Origin: Anseongella ginsenosidimutans
GTDB taxonomy: Bacteria; Bacteroidota; Bacteroidia; Sphingobacteriales; Sphingobacteriaceae
Direction of reading: 5' to 3'
DNA: 64,000 nt
Assembly: GCF_008033235.1 (NCBI RefSeq)
Contig: NZ_CP042432.1
Coordinates: forward strand, 1,426,001 to 1,490,000
Positions 27,191-59,536 of the stretch are shown in pieces (within the stretch, counting starts at the first letter, position 1; each line of letters begins with the position of its first letter). Made by a program: the position numbers and the translations under genes. The notes beneath the pieces were generated by a model. It ran no database searches and had not been told where the DNA came from. It worked only from the letters and a program-made list of their open reading frames with translations.

Positions 27191-27270
27191 TTTTGTGTTT
27201 TTGTGTTATTGATAATTGACATCCTGTTGGTTTGCCGGCCGGGGTCCCTTGCCCCAGCCGGAGGGGCTTT

Positions 27271-28827: not shown

Positions 28828-28981
28828 TGTTCGCTTTGCTTTTTTGAGAAGCAAAGTTGCTTTATTCAAACCGCGGCATCCTCCGGTTTGAATACTTATC
28901 CTTGAAATTATTCTGCACTCATTGTTACCGAACTTCTGTATTTATTGTTGCCGATTACTCTGCACTCTTATTTTCCATTTT

Positions 28982-42111: not shown

Positions 42112-44810
42112 ATGCCTATGCGTAAAAAATTACCTCATTTGTTTTTACGAAATCCGCAGGGTTTTTCTCGCAAATTTGACACATCGCGTAACGTGAATAG
42201 CGAAAGCGTAGAGGAGAAGTCGCCTGAAATTTATCGTGCACAGAAAGATAGGCTAGATAATTCTTATCAAATTTTTGATGCCAAACGGCGTGAACGTATC
42301 AACCGCCGGACACTTGATGTTCCCGCGAAAATCGATTATATTGAAATTCGTTTCTATATTATATTCAGTGATACTCAATTTAATATCAAAAGCAGATTCG
42401 AAAATCAGTTTGGCTTATCGCCGGTAAGGTACAGCAACTTCAATAAAACTGTATTACTCGCTGTATCAGATACGAGGAAGTTTAAGGACTTCGTGAATTT
42501 ACTCTATATGTTTGTGCGTAGTTCTGATGATATCCCCCAAAAGGACAGAAGTATGCGATAATTACCACTATACATGATTTTGAATTTCTTAGCAGGGAGA
42601 AGGTTTTAGGCTATTCACGAAACCACCTGGTTCTAGATCTGGTTAATGTCCAGCAAAAGATATCAAGTGGTCTTGATCAGATAAAAGCACGTCTTTTTCC
42701 CTATCTCCAACGTCTAACGGAAGAGAGAAGAATCATAAGTTTCCAATCTGATGAAGATACGTGCATCGAAATTCATGGTATTGGCGATGAAGAATTATTT
42801 ACAATAGCTGACAACTTTGATATCCTTTGTGCGGCACATAGCTTGCGTACACCCCGAATTAGACCTGATGCCTTTAACATTGAGAATCTCACTTGGGCAA
42901 TCACTATCCATCGTAATCCCAGCGGCCACCTTATCGGAGTGTTAGATAACGGTGTCCGTCCCATTACTCCTCTAAGCGATATCGTTGCACCACATGGCAT
43001 AGATATAATTACTGGGATACCTTCTAATGCCATGCAACCAAGCCATCCTCATGGTACAATTGTAGCATCCTTGGCTGCCATAGGACTTCAATTCTTTAAA
43101 ACAGAACTGAACGAGTTTGTTGCTGATGCTAACATTTTGCCGATCAGGATTTTGGAAAGCTTTGATGGCATGTTTCAGGTGTTCGGTCTCATTAACGCTA
43201 TTAAAACAGCAGTTCGAGAGCATGGCGTCAGAATATTCAACCTTTCTGTTTGCGCGCAATCTAAAATGTACAATGAACCTCCATCGGTATTAGCTTATCA
43301 GTTAGATCGTTTGGCCTATGACCTGGATATTCTTATTTTTATTGCCACGGGTAATCTGGACGAAGCCGATATACAGATTATGCATTCCCCAGAGTGGTCA
43401 AATAATGAATTTCATCGATATCCCTTCCATTTCTACGATCCGGAAGCAAGTACAGACTGTCATGTATGTGAAGCTACAAACATTTGTGTTCCTGCTGAAA
43501 GTCTAAACAATGTAACAGTTGGTGCTACAGCGGATAATTTAAGAGACAATACTACGGATCTTACCCTATCTAGAGAACTCCCAGCTTATTATACCCGTAA
43601 GAACCATTACGATTACAGTAGATCTGTGAATGGTACCTCTATCCGTCAAGGTCAGATTAACCGAAATATTTCGAAACCTGACATCGTGATGCCTGGAGGT
43701 GACCGTATGGCCCCTTCCGCAGGTATGCAGGTATTCGGATTTGGTGATCAAGGGAACGATTTTTACACATTTGATTCAGGTACAAGTTTAGCTACACCTT
43801 TAGCATCAAACCTTGCCGCTAAAATTTTGAACCGGTATCCAGACCTGAACATGCAAACTGTCAAAGCATTAATCATCAATTCGGCTGAAAGACAACTAGA
43901 TGCTTCATTTTTAGACAAAGTAGAAAAGAAAATAAAGGACAAGGTTAGTCGAGCAAAATTTGGCGTCGATTTCAGCAGCTTATCTAAAGGGCAGAAAGCC
44001 CAAATTAGTAAAGGATTCAACAAGCAAAATTTATATCGTAATCTTGTAGGATATGGACAACCGGATGATGACAACGTCTTGTATTCAACTGATAAATCCG
44101 TCACGTTAGTATTAGAAGATTCGATAGCCAATCGCACTCACCGTGTTATCCCTATTACGATTCCTCCATATCTTTTAGAACGAGAACAGTCCAAACGGCT
44201 GTACATCAAAGCCACCCTTTGCTTCAAGACTTATCCCAACTGGGGTAATCATTTAGATTATAATTCATTGCACATCTCGTTCAATTTTGCAAGGCAAGTA
44301 GATGGTGCTTTAAATCACGCTGCTAATGTCATTGCTGATCGTACTGACAGCTTCTTTGACCAATTTTATCAAACAGAGGCGATACTTACAGAAACTGACC
44401 ACGACAAAGTTCAAGCGCTGAAAGCTGCAGAGCGCAAAAAGGCAATGGGTATAAAAGGAGAACTTAAAGGTTGGTCAGAAGATTATTTTCCACTGGTAAA
44501 CAAGCCATGCTCCAACACACAACAATTGGATATCCATATTCAAAAAGATGAGATAGCTAAGGTGTCTGGTCGGATTGTATTGGTGTTACGTTGCGCGCTA
44601 AAGGACAACCTTTCTCCAGCGCTGGACGCCTGGGCACAAGCTCAAGCAAGCCATCCCTTTTCCATTGTACTTTCGATAAATGACGAGACCAAATTGTTCG
44701 ATGATTTTAGTTTATATGATGAGTTAGTGGCAATTAATAATCTTGCACCAATTGCTTATTTGGAAGGGGAGGCAGGGGCAGCCGAAGTCGAAGTAGAAAC
44801 CCAAGTTTAA
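42112..44810 (+). CDS. S8-family subtilase (Y4bN-like), one frameshift
   Basis: The catalytic triad is intact: Asp in LIGVLDNGVRP (codon at 42945), His in SHPHGTIVASL (43050) and Ser in FDSGTSLATPLAS (about 43780); the oxyanion Asn is in FIATGNLDEADI. An N-terminal domain starts at 42112 and runs in one frame to 42561; the rest is open from about 42546 in another frame. One base added to the C5A4 run near 42535 joins them as SSDDIPPKGQKYAII. The C-terminal third is beta-rich. Such subtilases are known next to AAA ATPases in suspected defence loci. If the frameshift is real the protease domain may still be made from an internal start near 42843. Confidence 0.7.
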
Positions 44811-45841
44811 GCTAAAGTGGTTTGCAATGCCTCTTTTTCTTCTTGCACCAGTTGCCGCCAGATGGTGGTATTGATCTTGGGTTTAAGGTTGCGACTATTG
44901 CCCTCTTGGGTAAAAAGGCTACGCTTGATGGTGTTGAGCAAGGTTTTCTGGATGCTGTAGTAAGAGAGCCCCTCTGCCAGTTTGATGATACCGGATACAG
45001 CAGCTTTATTGTCAAAAGTAAAATCTCCATTCCGGAGGGTCAATGTAATCAATTCCTTAATTTTTTCCATGCTGGGGAGGGGGAAACCAATGCTCATATC
45101 AAAACGCCGCATTATCGCCTCATCCAGCATATCTTTTTGGTTTGTAGCGGCGATGGCAATGCTGCTTTGAGGGAGGTAGTCAAATAACTGTAGGATCGTG
45201 TTTACCACACGTTTCATTTCCCCATGATCTTGGTTATAGTCACGTACCTTGCCCAGTGAATCAAACTCATCAAGGAAGATGATACAATCTTCAGTAGCTG
45301 CCCGACGAAAGAGTTTAGCCAAGTTCTTGCTTGTCTCTCCCAGTTTAGCAGATACAATGGCTCCAAGGTTGACCACGATCATCATTTTTTTTAGCTCACC
45401 GGCTATGACATATGAAGCAAGTGTTTTCCCACAACCCGATGGGCCATGTAACAGCAGTTTATTGGATATAGGGAGTTGGTACCTATTCAATAATTCTATT
45501 GATTGGTGTTCCTGCAGGAAGTGTAGTAGCTTACCACGCACCATATCACTACATACAAGGTTTTCTAGACTATAGTCTGAAGTGAGTTTCTCCAGTATCA
45601 ATTCATCCGTCTCTCTATCCTGCAATTGCTGATAGTGTGAGGGTGAGCCTACTTTGGTCATACCACTCACCTCTTGCCGACGCAACGATTCCTTGATAAT
45701 AGATTGTAGTTGCAGAGCAAAATTTACCTTTTTGGTACTTTTGGAATGCTCAATCAACTCATTCAGACTATCTAATAACTTCTCCCGGTCGTTTTCTAGC
45801 CCGAAGCGTGCAATATCCTTAATATAGTCCGCCTGACTCAT
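44807..45841 (-). CDS. AAA+ ATPase partner of the subtilase
   Basis: The start MSQADYIKDIARFG (45841) gives 344 residues: a helical N-terminus and an AAA+ core with Walker A GPSGCGKT (about residues 135-142), Walker B IIFLDEFDSL, sensor 1 AIAATNQKDML and an arginine finger in MRRFDMSIGFPLP. It is of the FtsH/spastin-like group. Its stop codon overlaps that of the subtilase gene in a TTAA (44807-44810), so the genes are tail to tail. ATPase-subtilase pairs are usually co-directional, so this layout is odd. Confidence 0.85.
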   Translation of the reverse strand: MSQADYIKDIARFGLENDREKLLDSLNELIEHSKSTKKVNFALQLQSIIKESLRRQEVSGMTKVGSPSHYQQLQDRETDELILEKLTSDYSLENLVCSDMVRGKLLHFLQEHQSIELLNRYQLPISNKLLLHGPSGCGKTLASYVIAGELKKMMIVVNLGAIVSAKLGETSKNLAKLFRRAATEDCIIFLDEFDSLGKVRDYNQDHGEMKRVVNTILQLFDYLPQSSIAIAATNQKDMLDEAIMRRFDMSIGFPLPSMEKIKELITLTLRNGDFTFDNKAAVSGIIKLAEGLSYYSIQKTLLNTIKRSLFTQEGNSRNLKPKINTTIWRQLVQEEKEALQTTLA

Positions 45842-46122
45842 CGTTAGCAATTTCTGGCAAATATACCTTTTGAAATATTAGTTAGCATCAAAAATGTGGC
45901 CAATAGCAATTCTTTACTCCGCTTGTCTTTACACCCCTATTTATATCATACCTTGCTATGATGAAAAGTAAAAGAAAAAAAGAACAAAACAAAGGTTTAA
46001 ATAGACTTTTTAATATAGCCCCCGCAACTCCTTTTGTCTTAGGTCAATACAGAAGATCGTGCCTTCGTACCGATTGATAAGCAGAAACTAGTATTAACAG
46101 GGATTTGAAGGACCGAGGCTAA
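45842..46122. other. Gap without a recognisable gene
   Basis: About 280 bases between the AAA ATPase start and the end of the mobilisation cluster. It holds A-rich sequence (45960-46000) and no ORF, repeat or RNA that I can support. The ATPase promoter is expected at its left end. Confidence 0.3.
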
Positions 46123-46716
46123 TTAATTGTCCTTTAAACTTTTTAGTTTCTCCCGAGCTTCCGTAGCCTCTTCCTTTTTCCGCCTCGCCTCCGCTTCCGC
46201 CTGCAAAATAGCCAGCTCCTCCTTTTCCAGCTCACGTGTCGCCCGCCGAGCAGCCTTCGGATCCTTCCGATAGATATCCTCCGCCCACTGGCTCGCCTTC
46301 GGATGTTCGAACCGGATCATCCGGTATTTCAGGTCGTTTTCTTTCAGGCTTCTGTTAGTCCACCACAAATGCGCTCCTAAGCCGATGGCCATCGCGCTAC
46401 TCATAATCAGGATCAGCGCGGTGATCACGAACCCTCTGGAGCGGGTTTCAACATGGTGATGGTGCCGCATCGGGATTTCCCGGGGGATGGCGTCGATCTT
46501 CCGAATCAGGTTTTCGATCAATCGGCTCACGGTTTCCGCGGAATTGTGCCGCTCAAGGACTTTTAGCCGCTGGTGGATTTGCTGCAGGTAGGCGCTATAG
46601 TCCGGTACCTTGATCTCGGGGAATTTGATCGCCCGGCCGGCCAGTTCTTCGAATTTGCGGATCAGCAATTGCAGCGTTTCTTCGATGCTGTCGAGTTGTT
46701 CTTCGGTCTTGTTCAT
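46123..46716 (-). CDS. Membrane protein of the mobilisation operon
   Basis: The 197-residue protein has an N-terminal coiled coil (EEQLDSIEETLQLLIRKFEE), a single transmembrane helix at about 101-120 (FVITALILIMSSAMAIGLGA) and a C-terminal charged coiled coil (RKKEEATEAREKLKSL). Proteins of this form follow relaxase genes in many Bacteroidota mobilisable elements. Its start overlaps the relaxase stop by four bases. It could link the relaxosome to the membrane. Confidence 0.65.
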   Translation of the reverse strand: MNKTEEQLDSIEETLQLLIRKFEELAGRAIKFPEIKVPDYSAYLQQIHQRLKVLERHNSAETVSRLIENLIRKIDAIPREIPMRHHHHVETRSRGFVITALILIMSSAMAIGLGAHLWWTNRSLKENDLKYRMIRFEHPKASQWAEDIYRKDPKAARRATRELEKEELAILQAEAEARRKKEEATEAREKLKSLKDN

Positions 46717-47672
46717 AAGTGTATTCCTCTATGTTGATTTTTACGTTTTTTCTTGCGTTTGCGTTCTATTTCGGCCGGGTCAGGCTCCGGGCCGGCCGGT
46801 TCGGGTTTTAACAGGATGCCTAGCAGGCTTTCAGTTCGCCGGCTGCCGGGAAGCGTGAAGGTTGGTTTAGCTGTTTTCTGTATTCGTTCCGGTTTAAGGG
46901 CGGAAGCCAGGTACGGGTGCTGCGACCGCTCTAATACTGCCCGCAGCAGGTTGCTTTTCAAGAGCTCGCCGAGCTTCCCGTAGCTGAATCCCCGGTCAAC
47001 GGCGGAACCTTTGAACGTCATGCCGTCTTTACTGAAGGAGATCCCTTGAACCTCGCTGGTCCCGCTGCGATATTTATATTGGATGCCGACGCCTTCCTGC
47101 CGGAGGGTTTTCTCCAGTTCCTTCCAGTTGATGGCCGTCCCGACGGCCCGGCGGATCGCGTCATGAAGCTCATACCGGATCTTGTCCGCTCCTTTCAGCC
47201 GCCAGCGGTTCACGTGCTGCTTTCCTTCCGCCAGGTGATAGCCGTATTTTTGGGTCATCGCTCGGCATACCCGGACGTTTAGCTGCCGCTGAAAACGGTC
47301 GGACAGGGTTTTGCCTTCGTTGTTCACCCGGTTATAGAGTATATGGATATGCGGATGCTCCCGGTCGGTATGCTGCACAACGAGGTACTGCGTATTCCGG
47401 ATGCGCATTTTCTCCAGGTATTCCCGGGCGCATTCGGTCATGATTGCCTGGCTCAGCTTGGGCCGGTCCTCCTTGCTCCAGCTCAATATCAGGTGCCCCG
47501 CAGCTTTGCCCAACCCCGGGTTCATTTTTCGCTGCAGGTTGAAATCGATGGTGGCGGCGCGGGCGCTGTCCATCCGAACCCCTTCCGCGTCGAGGACGGT
47601 GGCTTCCGGCCGGTTCATCAGGTACCGCATGCAGCCACCGAAACTTTTACCGGTGATCACTTTCCCGATCAT
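46713..47672 (-). CDS. Relaxase/mobilisation nuclease (MobB-like)
   Basis: The 319-residue protein begins MIGKVITGKSFGGCMRYLMN, the N-terminus of MobP/MobV-like Bacteroidota relaxases, and carries the metal-binding HxH motif in HPHIHILYNRVN (about 129-140). It nicks one strand at oriT and leads it into the recipient cell. It overlaps the MobC-like gene by 26 bases. A full C-terminal region follows the nuclease domain, so it is probably functional, with conjugation machinery supplied by another element. Confidence 0.9.
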   Translation of the reverse strand: MIGKVITGKSFGGCMRYLMNRPEATVLDAEGVRMDSARAATIDFNLQRKMNPGLGKAAGHLILSWSKEDRPKLSQAIMTECAREYLEKMRIRNTQYLVVQHTDREHPHIHILYNRVNNEGKTLSDRFQRQLNVRVCRAMTQKYGYHLAEGKQHVNRWRLKGADKIRYELHDAIRRAVGTAINWKELEKTLRQEGVGIQYKYRSGTSEVQGISFSKDGMTFKGSAVDRGFSYGKLGELLKSNLLRAVLERSQHPYLASALKPERIQKTAKPTFTLPGSRRTESLLGILLKPEPAGPEPDPAEIERKRKKKRKNQHRGIHL

Positions 47673-48039
47673 CGTTCAGATTGGTTAATTGTTCATCGAT
47701 CTTTCGCAGGATCTCCCGGCATCTTTTCTGGACGGTCAGCAGGCCGTCGGTATGCGTCAGGCGGACAAGCTGGTTAAGGTTATTTGCCAGTCCGGCCAGC
47801 ATCCGCAGTTGCCGCTGATCTTCCGGGGAGATCCGGGCCATGACGCTGGCCCGCTTGGCCGCCCCGCGGAACCATTCACTGGGCCGCATACCGGCCCGGC
47901 GGGCTTTGTCCCCGATCAGAAAACGTTCGGTGTCGGTCAGCCGGACGGTCATTACGTATTGCCGCTTCACTTTCTTCGGCGGGCGGCCGCCCTTGCCACG
48001 TCTCGAACGCTGGTTTCTTTTATGATCGGTGTTCGTCAT
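47647..48039 (-). CDS. MobC-like relaxosome accessory protein
   Basis: The 130-residue protein is basic at its N-terminus (KRNQRSRRGKGGRPPKKVKR) followed by a ribbon-helix-helix-like segment (YVMTVRLTDTERFLIGDKA) and the MobC tail NNLNQLVRLTHTDGLL. It binds oriT DNA and helps the relaxase nick. It lies directly below the palindrome-rich oriT candidate and overlaps the relaxase gene start, the normal layout of Bacteroidota mobilisation cassettes. Confidence 0.85.
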   Translation of the reverse strand: MTNTDHKRNQRSRRGKGGRPPKKVKRQYVMTVRLTDTERFLIGDKARRAGMRPSEWFRGAAKRASVMARISPEDQRQLRMLAGLANNLNQLVRLTHTDGLLTVQKRCREILRKIDEQLTNLNDDRESDHR

Positions 48040-48072
48040 TGCTCGTTAAAACCTATCTGCCGTCAGGCAGCC

Positions 48073-48156
48073 CCTGATGCGACCACCGGGAGCATCAGGC
48101 AAGTTTGCTTCCGGCCCCGCCGGAAGAGTTTTTGTATGACAAAAACACAAACTTGC
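48073..48156. other. Candidate origin of transfer (oriT), nested inverted repeats
   Basis: Four perfect inverted repeats are packed in 84 bases: 48073-48080 with 48092-48099; 48099-48107 with 48148-48156; inside that, 48108-48115 with 48119-48126 and 48129-48135 with 48139-48145. The second pair closes a three-way junction containing the last two hairpins. It lies 34 bases upstream of the mobC start, exactly where oriT is found in related elements. The nick site itself is not assigned. Confidence 0.6.
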
Positions 48157-48233
48157 TCCTTCTAAAAATGAGTGGGTGGTCCCGGCGGCGAAGTCCCTGC
48201 TTTTATCCGGTTAAGTCGCTTCCCGGGCTGTGC

Positions 48234-48536
48234 TTACTTCAAGGCTAATGCCTGTTCCCCGGCCTTCTCCTTCGTTACTGCTTCGCGGACCGCCTCCATA
48301 GTATAAAGCACCCGTCGCCCGATCCGCTCCGGTTTGAGAATACCCGCCTTCTCCCAAAGGTGAAGCGTAGCCAGCGAGACGCCCAGCAACTCAGCTGTCT
48401 CTTTCCGCGTAAGAAAAGGCTTTTCAGGATGATTGGCAGGCTGCGTAACCATCAGCGGCTTCACCGCCGTCCGCACCTGTTCTGTAATGAGCTCCCGAAG
48501 CTCCCGCTCCGTGAGCGATGTAAAGATCTGTGTCAT
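48234..48536 (-). CDS. Helix-turn-helix protein, excisionase/MerR-like
   Basis: The start at 48536 (MTQIFTSLTERELREL) gives 100 residues; another ATG lies at 48557. The core FLTRKETAELLGVSLATLHLWEKAGI and the following RIGRRVLYTMEAV are the HTH_17 winged helix of Bacteroidota excisionase-like proteins. It probably controls mobilisation or excision of the island. It lies upstream of the oriT and mob genes on the same strand. Confidence 0.8.
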   Translation of the reverse strand: MTQIFTSLTERELRELITEQVRTAVKPLMVTQPANHPEKPFLTRKETAELLGVSLATLHLWEKAGILKPERIGRRVLYTMEAVREAVTKEKAGEQALALK

Positions 48537-48671
48537 CGTTATTGTATTTGATGACACAAAACAAAGGTAGATTTAATGAGGGATCGCTCCCTTTTTTGAT
48601 CCCTTTGGGTATGTTTAGTTGGAAGTGATGGCGTTTTCTTGAACTTGGGCTAAAGCTAAGGCAGCTGTCAC

Positions 48672-49512
48672 TTGCTTGAAGGGCAGCTCGTGGCGGGCAA
48701 GATCGCGATGGCTCACCTGTCATCGCCTAATTTGTATTACGTGTTAAGCGGCTTGGATTTTACCTTGGATATCAATAATCCGGAAGCGCCGAAGATCTTT
48801 TGCATAGGGAATAATCCCATGAAATTGCAGACCTACGGTGAGGTGATTTCGCTGTATGTCAACCGCCTGCTGAAGGTCATCAACCAGAAAGAAAAGGAGC
48901 CTTGCGGAGTGATCTGTGACGAATTTCCCAGCTTGGTCGCAGACGTCATTCCTACAATCACTCAGGGCAGAAGCCAGAAAATTTTTGTGTGCCTGGGCAT
49001 CCAGGATCTGAGTCAGTTGCCGAAAGAATACGGGCAAAGATGCGGCGGATGTGATCATCAATACGACCGGCAATATTATTTCCGGGCAGGTACTGGGCGA
49101 TTCAGCAAAGTTGATGTCGGACCGGATCGGGCGCATTATGCAGGATCGTCAGAGCCTTTCGATTAACAGCACCGATACCTCCGTCAGTAAAAGCAAACAG
49201 CTGGAAGCGGCCCTGCCATCCGCCCGTATTGCGGATTGAGCAGCGGAGAATTCGTGGGATCGGTGGCCGATACACCCGATCAGCCTATCGAGCGAAAGGT
49301 GTTCCATTCCCGGTTTGAGCTGGATCAGGTCGCCTTGAATGCGGAGGAAGATAGCTATCAGCCCTTACCTGTTATCCGAAAGGTCGATCCGGCGATGGTG
49401 CAGCGGAATTATGAGGAGGTGAAAAAAGATGTTCAGAATATCGTCTACACCGAACTCCAGCGCATGATGAACGACCCGCAGCTGGAAGGCCTAGTAGTCA
49501 GGAAGGAAGGAC
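48672..49512 (+). pseudogene. TraG/BfmC-like coupling protein, C-terminal fragment with two frameshifts
   Basis: The fragment begins LVAGKIAMAHLSSPNLYYVL and keeps EPCGVICDEFPSLVADVI, the Walker B region of Bacteroidota coupling proteins, and SQKIFVCLGIQDLSQL. Frame two resumes at IISGQVLGDSAKLMSDRIGR (near 49040) and frame three at LSSGEFVGSVADTPDQPIER (near 49239). The first half of the protein, with the Walker A motif, is missing. It once fed DNA from a relaxosome into a conjugation pore. Its 5' end is lost in the region beside the excisionase-like gene, which points to a rearrangement. Confidence 0.75.
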
Positions 49513-50161: not shown

Positions 50162-51421
50162 ATGCCCAACGTTAAGGAAGAACGAATGGTCAAAGAGACA
50201 ACAACTTTGACACACTATGATTATATAGATTCTGAACTTGGAATAAAGCAGAGATCCAAGACTATCTATAAGAAGAAGGATTTAGTGATACATTATCCAA
50301 GAGGATTTGAAGGTGGACAGAAATACAAGACCATAAAGAAATTCTCGTTTTTGGGTTTCAAAAATAGGCTTCCCGTTGGGGTTAATAAATCAGTAAAAAA
50401 TGGCTATGGGTTTACAAAACGGCTTAATCCATTCTCAAAATACCTTGATGCATCCTTCGATTTTAAAGAAGTATTCATTGAAAAGGATGGAGAAATCAAA
50501 ATGGATATTTTAGCCAAGGTATTATACCTAAATCAAGAGAGCCTTAAAAAGTTAAATGATAGTTTGGATAGTGTTTTTAAGAAGAACAAGGATGAAGTTA
50601 ATACCGTTTTGATAAATGTGTTATCTAGCTTGTTCCCATTGGATATAGAAAAGCCAGAGGCTAGTTATATTCCCAATACAATAGCGACATCACTTCTGAG
50701 CTGGGGGAAGTCTTTAGATGAGTTCTCAAGTAGAGACAAAGATGCCATAATTGAACTTTTTAAGACCTTATCTTTAAAAACGGATTTTCTGACAGTGGAG
50801 TCCCTAGCAAAAACAAAGGAACTAGTCGACAATAAATATATCCAAGGAACTTTAAAAGAATATAAAGAGCTAATGAAGCTTTCTACTGATGGAAGTTCAT
50901 TAGAAAAAAAGTGGCAAAATTTTCTCAAACTACATAATTGGATATTTTCATCAATTTTCGCACAGCCAGTAATTTTATATAGAGATGAAGCATATGTCGG
51001 GGGCAAAACTTTAGACAATAAGAATGGAAAACATAATGACTTCTTAATTAAAAATAGTTTAAGTGATAACGTGTCTTTTTTGGAGATTAAGACCCATAGA
51101 ACCAAACTCCTTGAAAAATCCGCCTACCGTGGGGACGATGTTTTTAGTGCGACAAAGGATGTAACAGGCAGCATAAATCAGGTCTTAAACCAGCGAGATA
51201 GTTTTCAGAAGGAGTTTTATTCGATCAAAGTCAAAACGAAACAGGAATTTGAAACTTTCAATTCTAAGTGTGTTGTCCTTATTGGTTGTATACAAGAACT
51301 GTCAGAAAAACAACGGTATTCGTTTGAGTTATATAGAAGCAATAGCCGTGATGTGGAGATAATTACTTTCGACGAATTGCAGACGAAAATCGAAAGTTTA
51401 CAGGCTTTGATGAAAAAGTAA
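50162..51421 (+). CDS. sduA: Shedu-family nuclease (DUF4263)
   Basis: The C-terminal domain (about residues 235-405) has the DUF4263 start SSLEKKWQNFLKLHNWIFSS and the PD-(D/E)XK nuclease core GKHNDFLIKN with VSFLEIKTHRTKLL (Asp near 296, ExK near 308-310), then a conserved helix VTGSINQVLNQRDSF. The N-terminal 230 residues are the variable region of Shedu proteins. Shedu is a single-gene anti-phage system that nicks or cleaves DNA. The gene is A+T-rich and followed 77 bases later by another nuclease system in the same direction. Confidence 0.85.
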   Translation: MPNVKEERMVKETTTLTHYDYIDSELGIKQRSKTIYKKKDLVIHYPRGFEGGQKYKTIKKFSFLGFKNRLPVGVNKSVKNGYGFTKRLNPFSKYLDASFDFKEVFIEKDGEIKMDILAKVLYLNQESLKKLNDSLDSVFKKNKDEVNTVLINVLSSLFPLDIEKPEASYIPNTIATSLLSWGKSLDEFSSRDKDAIIELFKTLSLKTDFLTVESLAKTKELVDNKYIQGTLKEYKELMKLSTDGSSLEKKWQNFLKLHNWIFSSIFAQPVILYRDEAYVGGKTLDNKNGKHNDFLIKNSLSDNVSFLEIKTHRTKLLEKSAYRGDDVFSATKDVTGSINQVLNQRDSFQKEFYSIKVKTKQEFETFNSKCVVLIGCIQELSEKQRYSFELYRSNSRDVEIITFDELQTKIESLQALMKK

Positions 51422-51498
51422 AATGGAGCATTGCGTGATTATAAGTATGCCCGCTTCAAATAAAATAGTCTAACTTATCAAGTGGAATACATTAAATA

Positions 51499-52608
51499 AT
51501 GAATAGCAGCAATCAAGAAGTAAATGCAGGGGTTCATGCCAACATAGGGATGGACTTTCAGAAAAACTGCGCTATTTATTTGTTTCTGGAGAGTTACAAC
51601 GATTTAAAAGACCAACGCTATTTTATTATTATAGAACATTTAGAGGATATCATATTCGGATTTTTGAATAACGAAGCCGAACTATCCAGAATCCAAACCT
51701 ACCAAGCTAAGAAGTCCTCGTCAAAATGGGCAACAAACGCCCTTCTTAAGATTATTCATAAAATCACGGAAACTGGTCAATCTATATTAGACGATCCTCA
51801 TCCTAAAGCAGGTGATTTTTTTCAGGATAATCATTTTGCGACCAACAATTCAATCGAGTTTAAATGCAGGGTTAACAGCCAAAGTTTTACTTGTACGGTT
51901 AATGAATCTTCGGTAACACAAAGATATGTTGATCTTGATCAAAACATTAAGGACAAGCTATTAAGAGGCAACAGAGAGGTAACCTTTACCCAACAAAGTA
52001 TAGCTAATTTAGACACTATAGTCTTTAAGTTTATTGATTTAGGGAGAACGCCGAAGGCGCAGAGGGAGCAATTAGAAGGAATGTTTCGTACGGTGTTTGG
52101 TAATCGTATTGAAGATCACAAAGCTGCATATGAGACACTATATTATGCCCTTGCAGAAATTGAACGAAAATTCAACCAAGGAGGTGTAGCGAAGCTAGCT
52201 GATAACAGAAAAAGAATAGAATCAACTACAATCGAGCCCATAATCGGTATTCTTACAAAGAAAAAGCTTGCATTTAATTTTTGGAGGGAAAAAGGACAGG
52301 GAATACGTGAAGAATTAAATGTCAGTCTATATGATAGTCCAGCATTTGATCTTCATTATCAAAATAGCTTTGACAAATTTAAAGATATTAACGAGAGTGA
52401 GCATAAAAAAATCTTTGCCTTTGTTGCGGAAAATAAGGACCTTCTAAGAGAACACACTACTGATAGGGCTTGTATAATAGGTTTTCTGCGAAAATTTAAT
52501 GATGAGAAATCATCTACCCTTTCTGACTTACAATTAAAGGCAGCGATCGCAGCAGCTTTCGTAGAAGTTAAAAATACAGAATATGAAGACGACACTTTAT
52601 ATCAATAG
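51499..52608 (+). CDS. DUF4297-like nuclease, Lamassu/Cap4-type effector
   Basis: The N-terminal domain (residues 8-95) follows the DUF4297 pattern: NIGMDFQKNCAIYLFLES, then FIIIEHLEDIIFGF with the metal-binding Glu/Asp, and RIQTYQAKKSSSKWATNALL, where QAK is the QxK of this PD-(D/E)XK group. The remaining 270 residues are helical and may sense the phage or bind the partner. It overlaps the SMC-like ATPase gene by 26 bases. In Lamassu-Cap4 systems a DUF4297 nuclease of this kind is held and released by an SMC-like ATPase. Confidence 0.75.
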   Translation: MNSSNQEVNAGVHANIGMDFQKNCAIYLFLESYNDLKDQRYFIIIEHLEDIIFGFLNNEAELSRIQTYQAKKSSSKWATNALLKIIHKITETGQSILDDPHPKAGDFFQDNHFATNNSIEFKCRVNSQSFTCTVNESSVTQRYVDLDQNIKDKLLRGNREVTFTQQSIANLDTIVFKFIDLGRTPKAQREQLEGMFRTVFGNRIEDHKAAYETLYYALAEIERKFNQGGVAKLADNRKRIESTTIEPIIGILTKKKLAFNFWREKGQGIREELNVSLYDSPAFDLHYQNSFDKFKDINESEHKKIFAFVAENKDLLREHTTDRACIIGFLRKFNDEKSSTLSDLQLKAAIAAAFVEVKNTEYEDDTLYQ

Positions 52609-54313
52609 CGTATTAGTATATAGCGAACGAAACAACAAATTCTTTTATACAAAATTTAAAGACAGGCTAAATGTGATTTATGGCAAAAACACGTCAGGAA
52701 AGAGTACTTTAATTCAGCTATTGCTTTTTGCGTTTGGTATTAATGATAATAAAATAAAGCTGGCAGAGATTCTCTCTGAAGAGATCTTTGTAAGATTAGA
52801 TTGTACCGTCACCAGAGAACGAGGTTGTGAACCCTATGTGTTTCTTAGGCAAGATGAAACTTTATTTATCAGGGAAAAGGGCAGAAAAGTTTTAAGATTT
52901 AATGGGATTAGCGGCGACAGCTCAGCAGAGCATATAAAGTTAAAGAAGTATTTCAGTAAACTTTTCAACTTCGGCCTGCAACTAGAATCAAATAGTGGAG
53001 TGTCTGAAGCACCCATAGAAACTATATTTCTACCATATTATATCTCCCAGGAAGTTGGGTGGGTTTATCTTAGGAAGTCATTTACTAATCTCAATTTTTA
53101 CAAAAATTTCAAAGAAGATTTCCTTGACTACTATTTGGGAATTGAAAGCGCATTGGATAGAGAAGAAAAAAGGAAGATTGAAAGAAATATTAGTAGGTTA
53201 AACAGCCAGATAAAATTCTTTACTGAAGTAGAAAGAGATAGCCCCGATTTTAAACTAGCGAATGCTGTTACCAAAGCGCTCAATGGCAAGGCAAACCAAC
53301 TACTTGTAGAAATAACAGGAAATAAAGAAAAATTAATGGATCTGGAAAATGATTACGTAGACAATTCAAATAAGCTTACTTTCTACAGTAAAAGGCTCGC
53401 TGTGGTTTCTAAGGTTAAAAGAAACCATCAAAACCAAGAACCTGGAAAAGATAATTGCCCCACTTGTAATCAGATTTTGCCTTCAGGTATTGAGAATGCC
53501 TATGCCTTTTTTCAAGAGGGAAACGATACTATTGCGTTAAAGAAAGATTTAAAAGAAAAGATCAAGCAAACGCAATCGACGCTTAACGCGCTTTCAAAAA
53601 AGATTGAAATCAAGCGAAGTGATATGAGTGCTTCTTTTAAAATTTTTAATAGATATTCCGAGGAAGACGTAACGCTGGAAAAGTATATTGATCACCGAGT
53701 AAATATACAGCTTCTTGAAAATCTAAATAAGCAGATAGGACAGCTGACACTGGAATTGGAAACTGAAAGGGAACGACTAAAGGACTACAAAACTGAAGAT
53801 GAAATTTTGTTCGAGAGAGAGAAGAAAAACAAGGTTTTTAAAGACATATATTCTAGGTACATTAGTGATTTAGGTTTGCCTAACGTCTCGGAAGATAGAT
53901 TTAGCAAACTTTATGATATTTCGTCCTTTCCATTTCAGGGGGTACACCTACACCTCGCCGTTATGAGTTATCATTTTGCTTTTAATTATCTAATAACTGA
54001 TACAGTCACTATTCATAGGTTACCCTTTATTCTCGATAGCATATTTAAAGAGGATGTCGAGGGCGGCAATAGAATTAAAATCCTGAATTTCATAAATGCA
54101 AATTTTCCCCGAGATACCCAAACTATATTATCTATAGCCGATGATAGTAATATAGATTCTCGTATTGGCCAGTATAAAGCGGATATATTTAAAGATAACG
54201 CGCATATGATATGTATTGGAAATGGAACAGAGGAACGTGCGTTGTTAAAAAGCAACGACGATTCTCAAAAAGCACTGATAGAAGATAGTTTTGAAATACT
54301 TGAAGCTATTTGA
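52583..54313 (+). CDS. Rad50/SMC-like ATPase, Lamassu-type (LmuB-like)
   Basis: The 576-residue protein has Walker A YGKNTSGKST (residues 33-42), two coiled-coil arms (about 170-260 and 320-420) that meet at a zinc-hook-like CPTC (residues 291-294), and a C-terminal lobe with LPFILDSIFKEDVEGG (about 480-495) in the Walker B position. The residue after the Asp is Ser instead of the catalytic Glu, which is unusual. The ABC signature is not obvious. It follows the DUF4297 gene with a 26-base overlap, as expected for a two-gene Lamassu-like unit. Confidence 0.75.
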   Translation: MKTTLYINSVLVYSERNNKFFYTKFKDRLNVIYGKNTSGKSTLIQLLLFAFGINDNKIKLAEILSEEIFVRLDCTVTRERGCEPYVFLRQDETLFIREKGRKVLRFNGISGDSSAEHIKLKKYFSKLFNFGLQLESNSGVSEAPIETIFLPYYISQEVGWVYLRKSFTNLNFYKNFKEDFLDYYLGIESALDREEKRKIERNISRLNSQIKFFTEVERDSPDFKLANAVTKALNGKANQLLVEITGNKEKLMDLENDYVDNSNKLTFYSKRLAVVSKVKRNHQNQEPGKDNCPTCNQILPSGIENAYAFFQEGNDTIALKKDLKEKIKQTQSTLNALSKKIEIKRSDMSASFKIFNRYSEEDVTLEKYIDHRVNIQLLENLNKQIGQLTLELETERERLKDYKTEDEILFEREKKNKVFKDIYSRYISDLGLPNVSEDRFSKLYDISSFPFQGVHLHLAVMSYHFAFNYLITDTVTIHRLPFILDSIFKEDVEGGNRIKILNFINANFPRDTQTILSIADDSNIDSRIGQYKADIFKDNAHMICIGNGTEERALLKSNDDSQKALIEDSFEILEAI

Positions 54314-54474
54314 AGCAGATGTGAAGGGATTAGCTAAAGATTTTATTTAATAATAGTCCTGATTTATGTTTTTAGTCTTGATTGATACTTCGGCTCTTCT
54401 ATATCTTCCGTTTTAAAGTTAAAGAGTGGTAATCTTATTCTCATATCGTCATTATTGATCCATAAGGCACTTTC

Positions 54475-55071
54475 TTAGGTGTTGTTAAGCAATTTTTTTT
54501 TCAATTTAATTTCTCCTGTTGTTTCCCGGTCTGTCCAATACTGCCCTTCCATTTCATTGACTTTAAATCCTTCAAATGTCAATAAGGTTGAACCATAATG
54601 AATTTCGCTTCTTTCTCTAACACTTGGCTTTGGTGTGTTTATGTAAGAGTATATCAATTGTTCTAATCCCCGTTCCTTATCAATGTCGAAGGACGCTCCG
54701 ATACTGTGACTTCTACTTTCTTTGGTTTTTATTTTCACTTGAACATTGAAAAAAGTCTGTGATATTTTTATTTCAGTTGGGATTGGGTCCAGCGATTTTT
54801 CCTTCCAATTAGATTTTAGTTCCCCTTCCCATTCGCCTGATAGATTTGGGAAAGGTACGAGCCAAGGATAAAATAGCTTCCATTTCCAACCCCACCTTAT
54901 AAATAAAGTCCAAAGAACCACATTAATTGAAATTGTCGTAGAAATATGGGTCAAAGCCTTATTAAAATCAATGCTCACCAAGTTTTGGGTTGAAAGAAAA
55001 ATTATTATGTAGGTCAAAAATGCCAACCCTAAAATAGTAAACCCAAAAACTCTAATATTGTATGTTACCAT
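54475..55071 (-). CDS. cap15: Cap15-like CBASS effector, two membrane helices and beta-barrel
   Basis: The ATG at 55071, two bases after the CD-NTase stop, gives 198 residues; a longer frame from 55134 would overlap that gene. Two hydrophobic helices (VFGFTILGLAFLTYIIIFL and a second around ISTTISINVVLWTLFI) are followed by a beta-barrel domain beginning NLSGEWEGELKSNW, the LxGxWxGxLxSxW mark of Cap15. This family oligomerises in the inner membrane when its barrel binds a CBASS nucleotide and disrupts the membrane, killing the infected cell. Its place after the CD-NTase fits a type I CBASS system. Confidence 0.8.
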   Translation of the reverse strand: MVTYNIRVFGFTILGLAFLTYIIIFLSTQNLVSIDFNKALTHISTTISINVVLWTLFIRWGWKWKLFYPWLVPFPNLSGEWEGELKSNWKEKSLDPIPTEIKISQTFFNVQVKIKTKESRSHSIGASFDIDKERGLEQLIYSYINTPKPSVRERSEIHYGSTLLTFEGFKVNEMEGQYWTDRETTGEIKLKKKLLNNT

Positions 55072-55073
55072 AT

Positions 55074-55961
55074 CTAAAATTCTAAATGATTCCAAAGAAG
55101 CAACATGTAGGAATTCACATCTTGATATGTCCACTTGCGACTGCTATGAAACAAGTAAAATAATTCTGAAACTTCACCCCACTCTTTACAGTTCTCGTGT
55201 TCCTTAGTTTCATTGTATATAAAGATGATCGATTGTTTTAACCTTTCAGTCCAACTGTAGTAATTATTTATTTTGTCATTTGGGACATTCCAAACAAGGC
55301 ATTCAAGAAGGAATGAGGTAATATTATCACTGACATTCTCACCATCGTCAATCATTTTGTACCTTAATTTTCTGTGAAGTCGAGTTAGTCTTTTAAATCT
55401 CCTAGCGGTGTTATTGTTTTTCCTGATACCATTATCAATGTGTTGTTTCGGGAAGTTCTCTATCCAAATTCCTTTATCAGCCATAAATTTTGCGCCAAGT
55501 ACGAAATTGCCATCCGCTGAATACCTTCGATAATTCCAAGTTGGAACCACATCAGTTTCAATTCTATAACTATTCTCTTTGATTGTTATGCACTTATCAT
55601 TTCTTATTACATCAGTTCTACCGAATTTATTTACAAGAGCATTTTCCACATCATCTTTAAATTCTGCGAAAGTATATGAGGTTGGCGTAATGCCGAAATC
55701 TTCTTTCGTCTTTTCTTTTGGAAGGTCATAGTAAAATCCACCTGTATATCTAACATTGATGTCAATATCACTATTAAGTCTTACATTTGTATTATTCGCA
55801 TATGAGCCTTGTCCGAACGTTTCAGTTGATTTCTTTTTTAGCTTTTCGTCAGAATTTATAGCGTCTCGCACCATGCGCTCAGAGTTTTCAAGTTTTGTCT
55901 GCTCAGAATCACTTGGTGGTTTTGTCCAATTGGTCAATTGGTCTTCAGTATATTTTGCCAT
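55074..55961 (-). CDS. CD-NTase (cGAS/DncV-like cyclic nucleotide synthase) of CBASS
   Basis: The 295-residue protein has the nucleotidyltransferase signature GQGSYANNTNVRLNSDIDIN (GS at 52-53, catalytic Asp 65 and 67) and the third acidic residue in YRIETDVVP (Asp 137), followed by a helical C-terminal lobe (NTARRFKRLTRLHRKLRYKM). On phage infection it makes a cyclic oligonucleotide that activates the downstream Cap15 effector. No Cap2/Cap3 ubiquitin-like genes are present. The clade and product cannot be fixed from sequence alone. It lies four bases after a GGDEF gene, so the three genes are one operon. Confidence 0.9.
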   Translation of the reverse strand: MAKYTEDQLTNWTKPPSDSEQTKLENSERMVRDAINSDEKLKKKSTETFGQGSYANNTNVRLNSDIDINVRYTGGFYYDLPKEKTKEDFGITPTSYTFAEFKDDVENALVNKFGRTDVIRNDKCITIKENSYRIETDVVPTWNYRRYSADGNFVLGAKFMADKGIWIENFPKQHIDNGIRKNNNTARRFKRLTRLHRKLRYKMIDDGENVSDNITSFLLECLVWNVPNDKINNYYSWTERLKQSIIFIYNETKEHENCKEWGEVSELFYLFHSSRKWTYQDVNSYMLLLWNHLEF

Positions 55962-55965
55962 ATTA

Positions 55966-56724
55966 TCAAACTATTATTTCAGTGCAATTTTTGTTTGGTT
56001 TCTTTTTTGCGTTTTGCAATGCTTGATTAACTCTTTCTAATACGTCGGTTTTTAATTCACCTTTATTAAATTCAGTTACTCCGCAGCAAACTGTTAGTTT
56101 GAAGCTTTCTCCGTCAATATTAAATGCAGTGTCTGCAATCAATTTTCGTTTTCTTTCTGCAGCAATTTGAGCATTGGATATTGAGGTCTGTCTGGCTATG
56201 ATTAGAAATTCATCACCACGCATAAAGTATCTATACGTTTCGTCAGTTATTCTACTGTCTTTAAATAACATCTTGCCCAATTTTGTAAGAAGTCTGTCAG
56301 CTACTTCATAGTTGTGGTCTTCATTGAATTTTTTAAAATTATCTATATCAAATAAAATTATAGAAATTGGTTCATCTCTTGAAACCCAACTATTATTCAA
56401 GTCATCCAAATCTAATTCTAGTGCTTTGTAATTTTTTAATCCCGTTAATTCATCAATCCTATTTTGAGATTGTAGTTTCTGAAACCTACTGTTAAATAGA
56501 AAGAAAGAGATTGAGAAGCTAATTCCAATTAAAAACAGAGAACAAAGCATTGTTACCCAAATAGAAATTGAAAAATCTAACTCAAGCTTTTCCTTAGCAA
56601 TTGGGATGAATTTTAAGATAAGTACCAAAATGAATGAAATAAATAAATATTTCATTAAGTCATAAAAGACGTTCGAAAGGACATCTTTTTTAAATTTTGA
56701 AAACGAATCTTTTATATATTTCAT
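55966..56724 (-). CDS. Two-TM GGDEF-domain protein in the CBASS operon
   Basis: The 252-residue protein has two membrane helices (about 25-42 and 54-76) and a C-terminal GGDEF domain with DELTGLKN (91-98), FDIDNFKKFN (125-134) and RGDEF (169-173), so the first Gly of GGDEF is Arg. The usual NDxxGHxxGD is changed to NEDHNYEVAD. The metal-binding Asp 126 and 128 and Asp/Glu 171-172 remain, and there is no RxxD inhibition site. It could be a divergent diguanylate or other cyclase. It is the first gene of the operon, four bases before the CD-NTase, so a role in CBASS control or guarding is likely. Confidence 0.8.
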   Translation of the reverse strand: MKYIKDSFSKFKKDVLSNVFYDLMKYLFISFILVLILKFIPIAKEKLELDFSISIWVTMLCSLFLIGISFSISFFLFNSRFQKLQSQNRIDELTGLKNYKALELDLDDLNNSWVSRDEPISIILFDIDNFKKFNEDHNYEVADRLLTKLGKMLFKDSRITDETYRYFMRGDEFLIIARQTSISNAQIAAERKRKLIADTAFNIDGESFKLTVCCGVTEFNKGELKTDVLERVNQALQNAKKKPNKNCTEIIV

Positions 56725-56992
56725 TGACTCTTTAAATGTTGCCTATTTGCGTATCATAGCTAATATGCTTATTTATCCTTTTCAATTCCGGGATAATAAC
56801 ACTCTTTGTCCCCTTTAAACAGTCTCTATTGCATTTATTGCTCTTCATGAAAATTATTGGGAATATAATATATGGGAACAGGTATAAATCCGTGAGCAAA
56901 TAGCGATTGCATTTGGCAATGCCAGAAAAGGCATAGCATTGACTCTTACTTTGTAAAGGGGTCTTGATCTCCGAAATACTGGTAAAGTAATA
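56725..56992. other. Gap upstream of the CBASS operon
   Basis: About 270 A+T-rich bases between the GGDEF start and the DUF1508 remnant. The CBASS promoter should lie here, but no clean TTTG/TAnnTTTG pair is visible on the minus strand. No gene or RNA is recognised. Confidence 0.3.
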
Positions 56993-57167
56993 CTATTCCT
57001 CTACTACCTCCGCATTTGGGGCATTCTCTCTTAGGGATTCAATACCATTATCCCGGGCAGACCGGGTGGTATACATTTCGCTGGATAGGATGATCTCCCC
57101 ATTTCCTGCTTTGAGGTTGAAATAAAAAATGCCCGTTTTGAGCCGTTTTCGTAACGAATTTTCCCAT
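56993..57167 (-). pseudogene. DUF1508 remnant, inverted relative to 49621
   Basis: From the ATG at 57167 the sequence reads MGKFVTKTAQNG, then after a frame change in the A-rich run near 57130 it gives FNLKAGNGEIILSSEMYTTR, SARDNGIESLRENAPNAEVV and a stop. Only one DUF1508 repeat remains. It is clearly related to the 49621-49943 remnant but in the opposite direction, and the two bracket the Shedu-to-CBASS block. Confidence 0.7.
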
Positions 57168-57468
57168 GGTTTTTATGGTTAGTTCCCTCAAAAATAACAA
57201 AAGCCATTAAAAACTCCTATATTTCGTAAGAGATTGTTTTACAGGCAGCTCCGGGGCAATTATGGGGTAATGAAGAAAAAAGGAGTCGATAGATAGCGCG
57301 CTAGTAAGACGCGCTAATTTTTCCAACCCTTCTAGAAATCGCTTCGATTTGTACCATGGGGGATCGAGGTAATCAAAAAAATCCTTTAGCCTTTAAAGAA
57401 ATAGACATCTACTTTAACGCCTGAACAAAATCAATTGTGATCATCCCTCGTTTTTTTAAGGTAGTTTT
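57168..57468. other. Gap with no recognised gene
   Basis: About 300 bases between the DUF1508 remnant and the truncated AbiEii gene. It includes a TATTTTTG box upstream of the remnant (minus strand, near 57193) and otherwise A/T-rich sequence. Nothing else can be supported. Confidence 0.3.
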
Positions 57469-57660
57469 TTATTTGTAATATTCTTCATGGCTGCCTACCA
57501 GGATGGTGTAATCGACATCGGCCGTTGCCCTAATCGAAATTCCGGCTTTTCCATACCAAATCTGCCTTGCCATGACGCCAATGAGGTAATAATCGATACT
57601 CAGGGTGGCAAATGTGTTCTCGATTGTGTCGAGTACGGGTTTTAGGTCTGTTGGTTTCAT
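57469..57660 (-). pseudogene. AbiEii-like toxin, N-terminal fragment
   Basis: The 63-residue product has YYLIGVMARQIWYGKAG and IRATADVDYTILVGSHEEYY, the nucleotidyltransferase N-terminus of an AbiEii-type toxin with its TxDxD motif (Asp pair in ADVDY). It stops directly after SHEEYYK, whereas full toxins have about 250 residues. Its ATG overlaps the antitoxin stop (57657-57660), so the gene order is normal but the toxin is truncated. Confidence 0.65.
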
Positions 57661-58667
57661 TGATGTGTTAAATACTGTAAATGCTCATTTTTTATGGTAG
57701 CGGCAACCTCGATACACCTTGAGTCACCTGTTATCAGCAGATCCGCGTATGTGAGCAAGGGAGGGGTCATTTGAACTTCAGGCTCCGTATCTGCCCAGAA
57801 TCTCTGGTATATCTTTATATTGCCACCAGCATCCGGCATCAGTCTCAGGGTTTTCATTAACTCATTTTTTGGCAGCTGTGTATAAACCGTAAGTATTTCG
57901 GGGTTCAAATTTCTGGTTAAAAGGTTTGCTGCTGGCTCACCGCCCCAAATAACCCCATCGGGTAATCGAAGCTCCTTCCAGTCGGCGATGTTATTTATCA
58001 TGCGGAAATTCCCCAAATGCAGGGCTGGTTTCAGCGTTTCCCGGTATCCGGCTATCCATCTTTCAAGCAATTCTTCTTCGTTTTGCAATGCAACGTTTTT
58101 TTTATCCAATTGAAGGAGGAATCCACCGTCTCTTAAACCTGCAAATACCAAATTTATATTCCCCAAAGCAACGCCGGCACCATCCGCAATATCTCGATAG
58201 GTCATGTTAAGCCGTTCAGGATCATTGAGGAAAAAAAACAAGACTTTGAGGCCCGCCTTGGTAAAAGCCCTGTTTGGCGGTTTCTTCTGCCCGGCAGGCG
58301 GCTTATTGCCTTCAATCCATGCCAGTTGTCCCTTATGGTTCACGTATAAGTTGCCGGCTCCATCAAGGTAGGCTATGCCATGTTCACGTAGCTGTCTTTT
58401 GATATCCGGGAAAATCCGGTTCGCTATAAGCATGAACGGCTCATTTTTACCCGCGAGGGCAATTAGCTTTTCTAGCTGGTAATGACGCACCTCGTGTTTG
58501 ATTTCAGCGTTAAAATGTATCTTTACGTTTTGGAAATCAAGCAAAAGCCTTCCATCTATCTCCGCATCCTTTTGTCGGATCGCGGGTTCCCAGTTGGCGT
58601 TGACACCGTTTATGAGCTGTAATTTATCCAAAGCCTGCCTGAGAACATCTTCTTCTTTTGCATCCAT
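57657..58667 (-). CDS. AbiEi-family type IV antitoxin
   Basis: The 336-residue protein has an N-terminal nuclease-like fold (FNAEIKHEVRHYQLEKLIAL, then RIFPDIKRQLREHGIAYLDG), a winged helix (TYRDIADGAGVALGNINLVF, AGLRDGGFLLQ) and a C-terminal domain ending ATIKNEHLQYL. This is the long AbiEi-like antitoxin group common in Bacteroidota. It is likely to repress its own promoter through the palindrome at 58685-58703. The gene is intact although the toxin is truncated. Confidence 0.75.
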   Translation of the reverse strand: MDAKEEDVLRQALDKLQLINGVNANWEPAIRQKDAEIDGRLLLDFQNVKIHFNAEIKHEVRHYQLEKLIALAGKNEPFMLIANRIFPDIKRQLREHGIAYLDGAGNLYVNHKGQLAWIEGNKPPAGQKKPPNRAFTKAGLKVLFFFLNDPERLNMTYRDIADGAGVALGNINLVFAGLRDGGFLLQLDKKNVALQNEEELLERWIAGYRETLKPALHLGNFRMINNIADWKELRLPDGVIWGGEPAANLLTRNLNPEILTVYTQLPKNELMKTLRLMPDAGGNIKIYQRFWADTEPEVQMTPPLLTYADLLITGDSRCIEVAATIKNEHLQYLTHQ

Positions 58668-58684
58668 TGTTCACTTTTTTAATA

Positions 58685-58737
58685 TGTTCACGTAACGTGA
58701 ACACTCAAAAATAATGAACATATTTGATATGATCAAA
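58685..58737 (-). promoter_or_regulatory. AbiEi promoter with overlapping operator
   Basis: On the minus strand TTTG (58734-58737), a 20-base spacer and TATTTTTG (58706-58713) form a good Bacteroidota promoter. Directly after the -7 box lies TGTTCACG-TAA-CGTGAACA (58685-58703), a perfect 8-bp inverted repeat over the start point. Further GTTCAC/TGAAC half-sites lie at about 58669, 58714 and 58744. AbiEi antitoxins are known to repress their own operon by binding inverted repeats, so this is the likely site. Confidence 0.65.
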
Positions 58738-58753
58738 CATGTTTGTTCACTTT

Positions 58754-59395: not shown

Positions 59396-59536
59396 GTTAC
59401 AAGTATGCATAAAAGGGTAACATAATTATTTTGCTTACCTAGAAATCAACGTTTGGCAAATCGGCTTAACTTTTGCCAAAAGTTGAAAAGTATTTTAACG
59501 TTAAAGGTACTGATACAAAGAAGGATAAATGCTTTA

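Follow-up and report, generated by a model that had tools for sequence, protein, structure and literature searches.

A 64,000-nucleotide stretch of the Anseongella ginsenosidimutans genome (the window) contains a branched arrangement of inverted repeats that is most probably the origin of transfer (oriT) of a mobilizable element with a MOB_P-type relaxase. This reading is based on the fold itself, on covariation within its stems, on its usual place just upstream of a mobC-relaxase gene pair, and on its presence in integrated elements that carry no relaxase. We interpret the site as a real, conserved and covarying oriT that has a new layout within a known kind, and the fold is very probably a start site for passing elements between bacteria.

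These results yield a signature, combining sequence and structure, by which mobilization origins can be recognised in Bacteroidota. They also make relaxase-less elements findable by oriT alone, as with the 12 intact copies lacking a detected relaxase in 399 genomes, which include tRNA-integrated elements of about 3 kb. Finally, they pose the testable question of whether a relaxase reads a multi-branched DNA fold.

Structure and gene context of the site

The site at positions 48073-48156 can be read directly in the window sequence as a three-way junction plus an 8-bp hairpin (Table 1). The initial annotation had proposed an oriT candidate in which a 9-bp stem encloses hairpins of 8 and 7 bp; the stem stands, but both hairpins are 8 bp long. 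The further 8-bp hairpin that it placed before the junction is indeed present (48073-48099), with G48099 common to this nic-type hairpin and the outer stem. The proposed junction also agrees with predicted folding: junction and hairpin together form the best DNA structure of positions 48040-48180 on either strand. The fold energies of the two strands are -35.7 and -35.8 kcal/mol, compared with -17.4 (sd 3.2) and -18.2 (sd 2.9) kcal/mol for dinucleotide shuffles (z of -5.7 and -6.0), and none of 200 shuffles was as good. A multiloop alone is not rare, being present in the best fold of 166 of 1000 base-shuffled window cores. The exceptional features of the window fold are its energy and conservation, not the multiloop itself. 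Its most conserved part is the 11-nt loop, as read on the minus strand. Positions 48040-48200 are present as a single copy in their own genome.

Table 1. Features of the predicted oriT and of the adjoining genes in the window
Feature	Position	Strand	Description	Evidence or remark
197-aa gene	46123..46716	-	overlaps the end of the relaxase gene	no family
Relaxase	46713..47672	-	MOB_P-type, 319 aa	Pfam Relaxase 4.8e-34
mobC / NikA-like accessory protein	47647..48039	-	130 aa	Pfam NikA-like 1.9e-14, MobC 1.8e-7
Nic-type hairpin	48073..48099		CCTGATGC-GACCACCGGGA-GCATCAGG	8 bp around 11-nt loop
Conserved loop	48081..48091	-	TCCCGGTGGTC	class [T/G]CC[C/T]GN[C/T][G/A]GT[C/T]; putative place of the nick
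Outer stem	48099..48107 with 48148..48156	+	GCAAGTTTG paired with CAAACTTGC, 9 bp	sequence, DNA fold
Hairpin B	48108..48126		CTTCCGGC-CCC-GCCGGAAG, 8 bp, 3-nt loop	letters vary, pairing kept; absent from one subtype
Hairpin A	48128..48146		GTTTTTGT-ATG-ACAAAAAC, 8 bp, T-rich arm	also in single-hairpin subtype
Helix-turn-helix / excisionase-like protein	48234..48557	-	upstream of the oriT	Pfam HTH_17 2.5e-8; TIGR01764 below cut-off

As the initial annotation noted, the site is upstream of mobC and relaxase genes, both of which follow directly on the minus strand. MOB_P-type relaxases have an N-terminal Tyr and an HxDxxHxHxH..N cluster. The window relaxase has both, and its Tyr17 and H101-D103-H106-H108-H110-N114 are invariant among 23 aligned sequences. 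The site likewise has the organization of a MOB_P oriT, with inverted repeats by a conserved nic-like region that is kept across homologous mob loci.

Other features of this neighbourhood are of interest in their own right. A broken remnant of a MobC/TraG-type coupling protein (48672-49166 and 49236-49487; NCBIfam Bacteroid_MobC, 2.1e-50 and 2.7e-25) is located on the strand opposite the mob operon, and the reading frame at 49236-49487 extends into a DUF1508 domain. An IS21-type pair (an IstB-type helper and a transposase-like gene) and a nearby reverse transcriptase gene occupy 26429-28869 and 29330-30211. Phage-defence genes, identified by using PADLOC and Pfam, flank the mob cassette (42843-45850 and 50162-59410). 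They comprise five kinds of systems, namely IetS/IetA, Shedu SduA, Lamassu LmuA/LmuB, a CBASS cyclase with a Cap15-type effector, and AbiEi. Because the window oriT sits between these genes, it may be a route by which the defence island moves.

Conservation, covariation and layout variants

In a whole-genome protein search, matches to the window relaxase at E <= 1e-20 were found in 74 of 301 genomes of the same family, its own included, and degenerate relaxase peptides had no match in genome and viral contigs. As homologous loci, we used 89 (L003-L091) of the 97 other relaxase matches listed, and four more (L293-L296) were added later. The loop class given in Table 1 is present on the sense strand upstream of the relaxase gene in all 89 loci (970-nt stretches), whereas searches of the opposite strand and of the reversed stretches found it in 1 of 89 and 3 of 89, respectively. 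Conservation beside homologous mob genes, the test named in the initial annotation, is therefore observed, and together with the stem covariation described later it supports the oriT reading proposed there. In 86 of these loci, the loop has the form [T/G]CCCGN[C/T]GGT[C/T]. The remaining three have GCCTGTTAGTT (L040, L051) or TCCTGATAGTC (L084), and loop positions 4 and 8 changed jointly from C-G to T-A both in L040/L051 and in L084. Because these positions change together, a two-base-pair mini-stem, CC-GNY-GG, is supported as a predicted element within the loop. No mobC was detected by BLAST in six of the 89 loci (L017 and L085-L089).

The structure can also be recovered without reference to proteins. 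The pattern TTTTTGN{3,5}CAAAAAN{20,50}CTCCCGNTGGTC was scanned against 84,980 genomes and matched 82 stretches, of which 80 were listed as loci; this set overlaps the relaxase-locus set. By title, all 80 are from Bacteroidota (Sphingobacteriaceae, Chitinophagaceae, Pontibacter and relatives, and Bacteroidales), and the pattern had no match in viral contigs. Genes for mobC and the relaxase are directly downstream on the same strand in 72 of the 80. Five of the other eight reach an end (four after mobC, and L140 with 150 bases left), and three (L160, L172 and L193) have neither gene. L160 is an oriT adjoining a tyrosine integrase. L172 and L193 match the pattern but fold differently, lie near tra-like ORFs, and were treated as other or chance matches. 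A shorter pattern, CCCGNYGGTYRCAAAA, was too loose; it gave 4 real oriTs among 30 loci read of 41 matches.

Covariation was assessed on 48 oriTs of the window layout (set A2) by using a 25-pair structure, from which hairpin B was omitted because its length varies. In this alignment, 95.0% of cells are paired, compared with at most 61.4% when the structure is slid by 1 to 3 columns. Both sides changed in 8 of the 25 pairs, and such changes account for 46 cells versus 13.2 (sd 5.3) in shuffles (0 of 500). In the outer stem, columns 5-11 pair with 67-73 in 48 of 48 oriTs; the innermost two pairs are weaker and are open in 9 and 14 oriTs. Hairpin A has 100% of its cells paired, with three compensated pairs, and two weak pairs of the nic hairpin are unpaired in 15 and 8 oriTs. 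For hairpin B, the pairs drawn by RNAalifold (columns 37-39 with 62-64) exhibit many both-side changes. Among 117 distinct oriTs, the best DNA fold of the core has a three-way junction in 87, and also in 87 on the other strand. The nic hairpin retains at least 6 of 8 Watson-Crick pairs in 57 of the 117 and all 8 in 26.

These patterns bear on an alternative that we regard as unlikely, although not negligible: the inverted repeats might be duplex binding sites for dimers of the relaxase or of MobC/NikA-like proteins, in which case the site would be an oriT with no need to fold. Protein binding to duplex repeats could explain the outer stem and hairpin A, because their letters vary so little as to be nearly invariant, and a NikA-like protein is encoded next door. 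However, such binding does not account for hairpin B, in which letters change and pairing stays, for the 15 Watson-Crick pair-type changes (4+1+4+6) that parsimony on the relaxase tree assigns to the nic hairpin, or for the compensated swap within the loop.

The three-way junction is not universal, because single-hairpin and other layouts occur beside related relaxases. Layout A is the window arrangement. In layout B (the Mucilaginibacter/Pedobacter type), the outer stem, GGAGCGAGTT/AACTCGCTCC, enters the loop motif and a separate nic hairpin is absent. Layout D (12 of the 89 loci) has hairpin A only, with GGGAGC..GCTCCC, and mostly ends a few bases before mobC. In layout E (L005 and some Bacteroidales loci), hairpin A is alone within the outer stem and is followed by B. 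Hairpin A and the loop motif are constant across these four layouts, and the distant loci L085-L089 keep the loop motif with different hairpins. The exact three-way shape is not essential family-wide, since 12 of the 89 loci have no hairpin B and others differ in the position of the outer stem.

Two further variants were observed. Past the nic hairpin, members of the Sphingobacterium/Olivibacter group have a matching right arm (9 of 66 sequences). This arm would perhaps create a four-way junction; it decays in close relatives, and we do not claim this structure. In three Chitinophagaceae loci (L137, L140 and L147), two A-rich copies lie downstream of the 5' arm GTGTTTTTG and each could serve as its pairing partner, an arrangement that looks like a bistable switch.

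The first and last letters of the loop are coupled. Across the 89 loci, 71 have T..C, 18 have G..T, and none is mixed. Sixty more relaxase-bearing model hits, a set that overlaps the 89 and leaves out three further loci, gave 39, 21 and 0, respectively. When this label was placed on a relaxase tree (134 rows, quick method), nine changes were counted, at least seven of them on starred branches; rows that came from the pattern scan are T..C by selection. Near-identical oriTs can have opposite loop types (L045 and L046), and no single relaxase or MobC residue tracks the switch. Exchange of a C-terminal relaxase module fails as an explanation, because trees of the N and C parts of the relaxase in the mixed clade need 5 and 4 switches. 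We infer that the coupled ends represent a relaxosome specificity class. A Parabacteroides distasonis plasmid record (L094) has tandem nic-type motifs, GCCCGGCGGTT and TCCCGCCGGTC, one per class, 30 nt apart upstream of mobC.

Non-standard pairs provide a hint about which strand folds. In the 45 A2 rows whose relaxase is in the tree, A.C pairs on the mobC-sense strand arose 12 times, all in the nic hairpin, and G.T pairs arose three times. If the folded strand tolerates G.T, this excess hints that the strand opposite mobC (window +) is the folded one. A constraint on the sequence of one arm would give the same mismatch pattern. The usual order in an oriT is hairpin, then nick; folding of the strand opposite mobC would place the junction 3' of the loop, unlike this order, which is a point against the oriT reading.

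The same hint would fit a role mainly after transfer, in which the site would start synthesis of the complementary strand in the recipient, either as a single-strand initiation site or as a single-strand promoter, and branched hairpins would suit that role. This possibility leaves both the conserved 11-nt loop and the coupling of its ends beside relaxase genes unexplained, and we consider it very unlikely.

Copies without a relaxase and minimal elements

A covariance model (R1) built from set A2 gave 131 matches in 93 of 399 genomes of the same family, and 113 of the 131 are beside a relaxase. Eighty-one hits are in genomes covered by the relaxase search, 70 of them with a relaxase match within 2.5 kb; 43 of the other 50 have a relaxase by tblastn. 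Among 85 relaxase matches compared, 15 have no R1 hit nearby. Twelve of these are layout D loci, and one is a second copy in a genome having layout D.

Eighteen R1 hits have no intact relaxase nearby. Two of these have fragments of mob genes (L243, L247), one is at a contig end (L244), and three have a decayed fold or loop (L246, L269, L284). The other 12 keep the junction (L242, L245, L248, L249, L250, L251, L252, L255, L257, L259, L265 and L272), and no mobC or relaxase of the window family was detected in the stretches around them. The loops of L248 and L249 have uncompensated changes, which count against the oriT reading.

The 12 intact copies are difficult to reconcile with a structured RNA, that is, a leader of the mobC-relaxase messenger that regulates translation. 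Such a leader would be expected just upstream of mobC and on its strand, where the site is found in the window and most relatives, and would fold strongly, as the site does on both strands. In these copies, no mobC or relaxase of this family was detected behind the fold. In addition, mismatches on the sense strand are A.C rather than G.T, and Rfam has no match up to an E value of 1 in positions 47500-49500. We therefore regard an RNA leader as highly improbable.

Tyrosine recombinases are encoded within about 4 kb of 10 of the 12 intact copies. In six copies, a member of one shared tyrosine integrase family is encoded within 3 kb; in four others, tyrosine recombinases occur as a pair within about 4 kb. 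This proximity might suggest that the fold is, as in integron attC, a single-stranded site at which a tyrosine recombinase acts, but the attachment repeats of three such elements are elsewhere, at tRNA-Ser 3' ends, most copies of the fold are beside a relaxase, and no tyrosine recombinase was found among the subset of window ORFs scanned with Pfam between 24825 and 58667, which makes this role extremely improbable.

In L242, L251, L255 and L248, the copies adjoin a tyrosine recombinase pair and a CHC2-Toprim primase gene; for L251, both the tyrosine recombinase domains and the primase were confirmed. By eye, ORFs flanking the copies in L249, L251 and L255 on the opposite side look like RHS-type gene ends; Pfam gave no family for the one tested.

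Counting fragments, the integrase shared by the six copies has 41 matches in six genomes of about 35 Mb together, so the chance of finding one in a 6-kb window is about 0.7%. Five further integrase loci were inspected. By these tests, both oriT and relaxase are absent from three; a relaxase fragment is all that was detected in L298, and the integrase of L301 is about 10 kb away from a relaxase-bearing oriT. The association is thus weaker when read from the integrase side than from the oriT side. The R1 model also detects no oriT at L297, where the integrase is a close copy (95%), which is another point against the oriT reading.

Three of the intact copies define compact elements. L257, L265 and L272 share an oriT block of 324-471 nt that is 90-92% identical in pairs and an integrase block that is 84-89% identical, and the cargo between these blocks differs. 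Direct repeats of 17 bp (GCGGAGAGAGAGGGATT or GCGGAGAGCTAGGGATT) mark the boundaries of each, with one repeat copy at the 3' end of a tRNA-Ser gene. The elements are 2920, 4202 and 3636 bp, respectively, and carry integrase and cargo without a relaxase. The smallest (L257) encodes a 168-aa protein of no family and an integrase with Arm, SAM-like and catalytic domains, and its remaining reading frames are all too short to encode a relaxase. Candidate 15-bp repeats were found for two other copies: L252 (about 6.7 kb, tRNA-Ser) and L259 (about 2.6 kb, tRNA-Pro, with PIN-domain cargo). L257, L265 and L272, as well as L244 at its contig end, have a T..T loop, a mixed form unseen in the relaxase-bearing loci read.

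Proposed mechanism and comparison with known systems

According to the oriT reading, one strand, made single through supercoiling or by the relaxosome, would extrude the junction. Hairpin A and the outer GCAAG/CTTGC stem would be the features recognised by the relaxase and MobC, the conserved 11-nt loop would be kept open by the neighbouring hairpin, and the relaxase would cut within this loop via Tyr17. A hypothetical helper conjugative element would supply the coupling protein and the secretion channel by which the cut strand exits, and, once transfer ends, the same single-strand fold would mark where the strand is cut again and rejoined. Hairpin B is probably a spacer that shapes the junction, because its letters vary while its pairing is kept. 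Elements that have this fold but no relaxase probably depend on the relaxases of other elements to move.

A broader proposal is tentative, and we think it more doubtful than not. A branched single-strand DNA fold, rather than a linear sequence, might be the mobilization passport in much of Bacteroidota, such that elements of 2.6-2.9 kb, with an integrase, one cargo gene and the fold, spread by showing this fold to the relaxases of others. The T..C and G..T ends would then be compatibility groups that have switched repeatedly, and the T..T hybrid, which occurs only in copies without a detected relaxase, could be served by helpers from either group.

No description of this fold (its loop letters, an oriT three-way junction or an oriT cloverleaf) was found in the literature searched, although other journals may have one. 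A sequence search of solved structures gave five WD-40 matches that we judged spurious. PMC5704250 states that, among canonical IMEs of Bacteroidetes and Firmicutes, the oriT and precise nick positions are known in only some cases.

The RP4-type nic region has an ATCCTG core. The window oriT differs from this type; neither ATCCTG nor CAGGAT is present in positions 48040-48200.

At the oriT of pMV158, several inverted repeats surround the nick, one of which is predicted to put the nick in a hairpin loop, and hairpin extrusion has been demonstrated by footprinting (PMC5863519). We take pMV158 as a precedent for hairpin extrusion at an oriT. In contrast to the window site, its relaxase (MobM, of MOB_V) is of an unrelated family, its hairpins are mutually exclusive rather than arranged in a junction, and the hairpin that would place the nick in a loop was not detected in the footprinting described there (PMC5863519).

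The term iOriT is applied to relaxase-less integrated mobilizable elements in PMC11389934. L257, L265 and L272 have the corresponding gene content (integrase, attachment repeats, oriT, and no relaxase within the element), and they may be moved by a relaxase acting in trans. They differ from the elements given that name in being built on the branched oriT of Bacteroidota.

Mobilizable elements of Bacteroides, Parabacteroides and Phocaeicola from the human gut (L092-L097 and L099) have a mobC-relaxase pair, as in the window. The TCCCGNYGGTC loop is upstream in six of the seven Bacteroidales loci read, the exception being L097. Their mobC is 31-35% identical, and the layout of the junction differs, for example with the outer stem around hairpin A only.

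A more distant likeness is provided by the Bacteroid_MobB-like loci L293-L296, where, as in the window, a GCAAG..CTTGC-type stem around a GTTT..AAAC hairpin precedes the mob genes. Their relaxases are of the same superfamily as that of the window, to which they are 27-29% identical, and have Bacteroid_MobB (NF041325) as best match. The window relaxase scores 93.7 bits against NF041325, compared with a cut-off of 400, and is thus outside Bacteroid_MobB (CTnDOT-type) by this measure; the stretches from L293-L296 (238-249 aa) score 108-129, also below that cut-off. Unlike the window, these loci have no second hairpin inside the stem (L293 has one after it), and CACTTCG, which is absent from window positions 48040-48200, is downstream of their stem, in contrast to the TCCCGNYGGTC loop of the window. 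Because the stem plan is shared, the loop is different and the window relaxase is far below the cut-off, we assign the window site to a branch other than that of the MobB-like loci, with which it shares a predicted ground plan.
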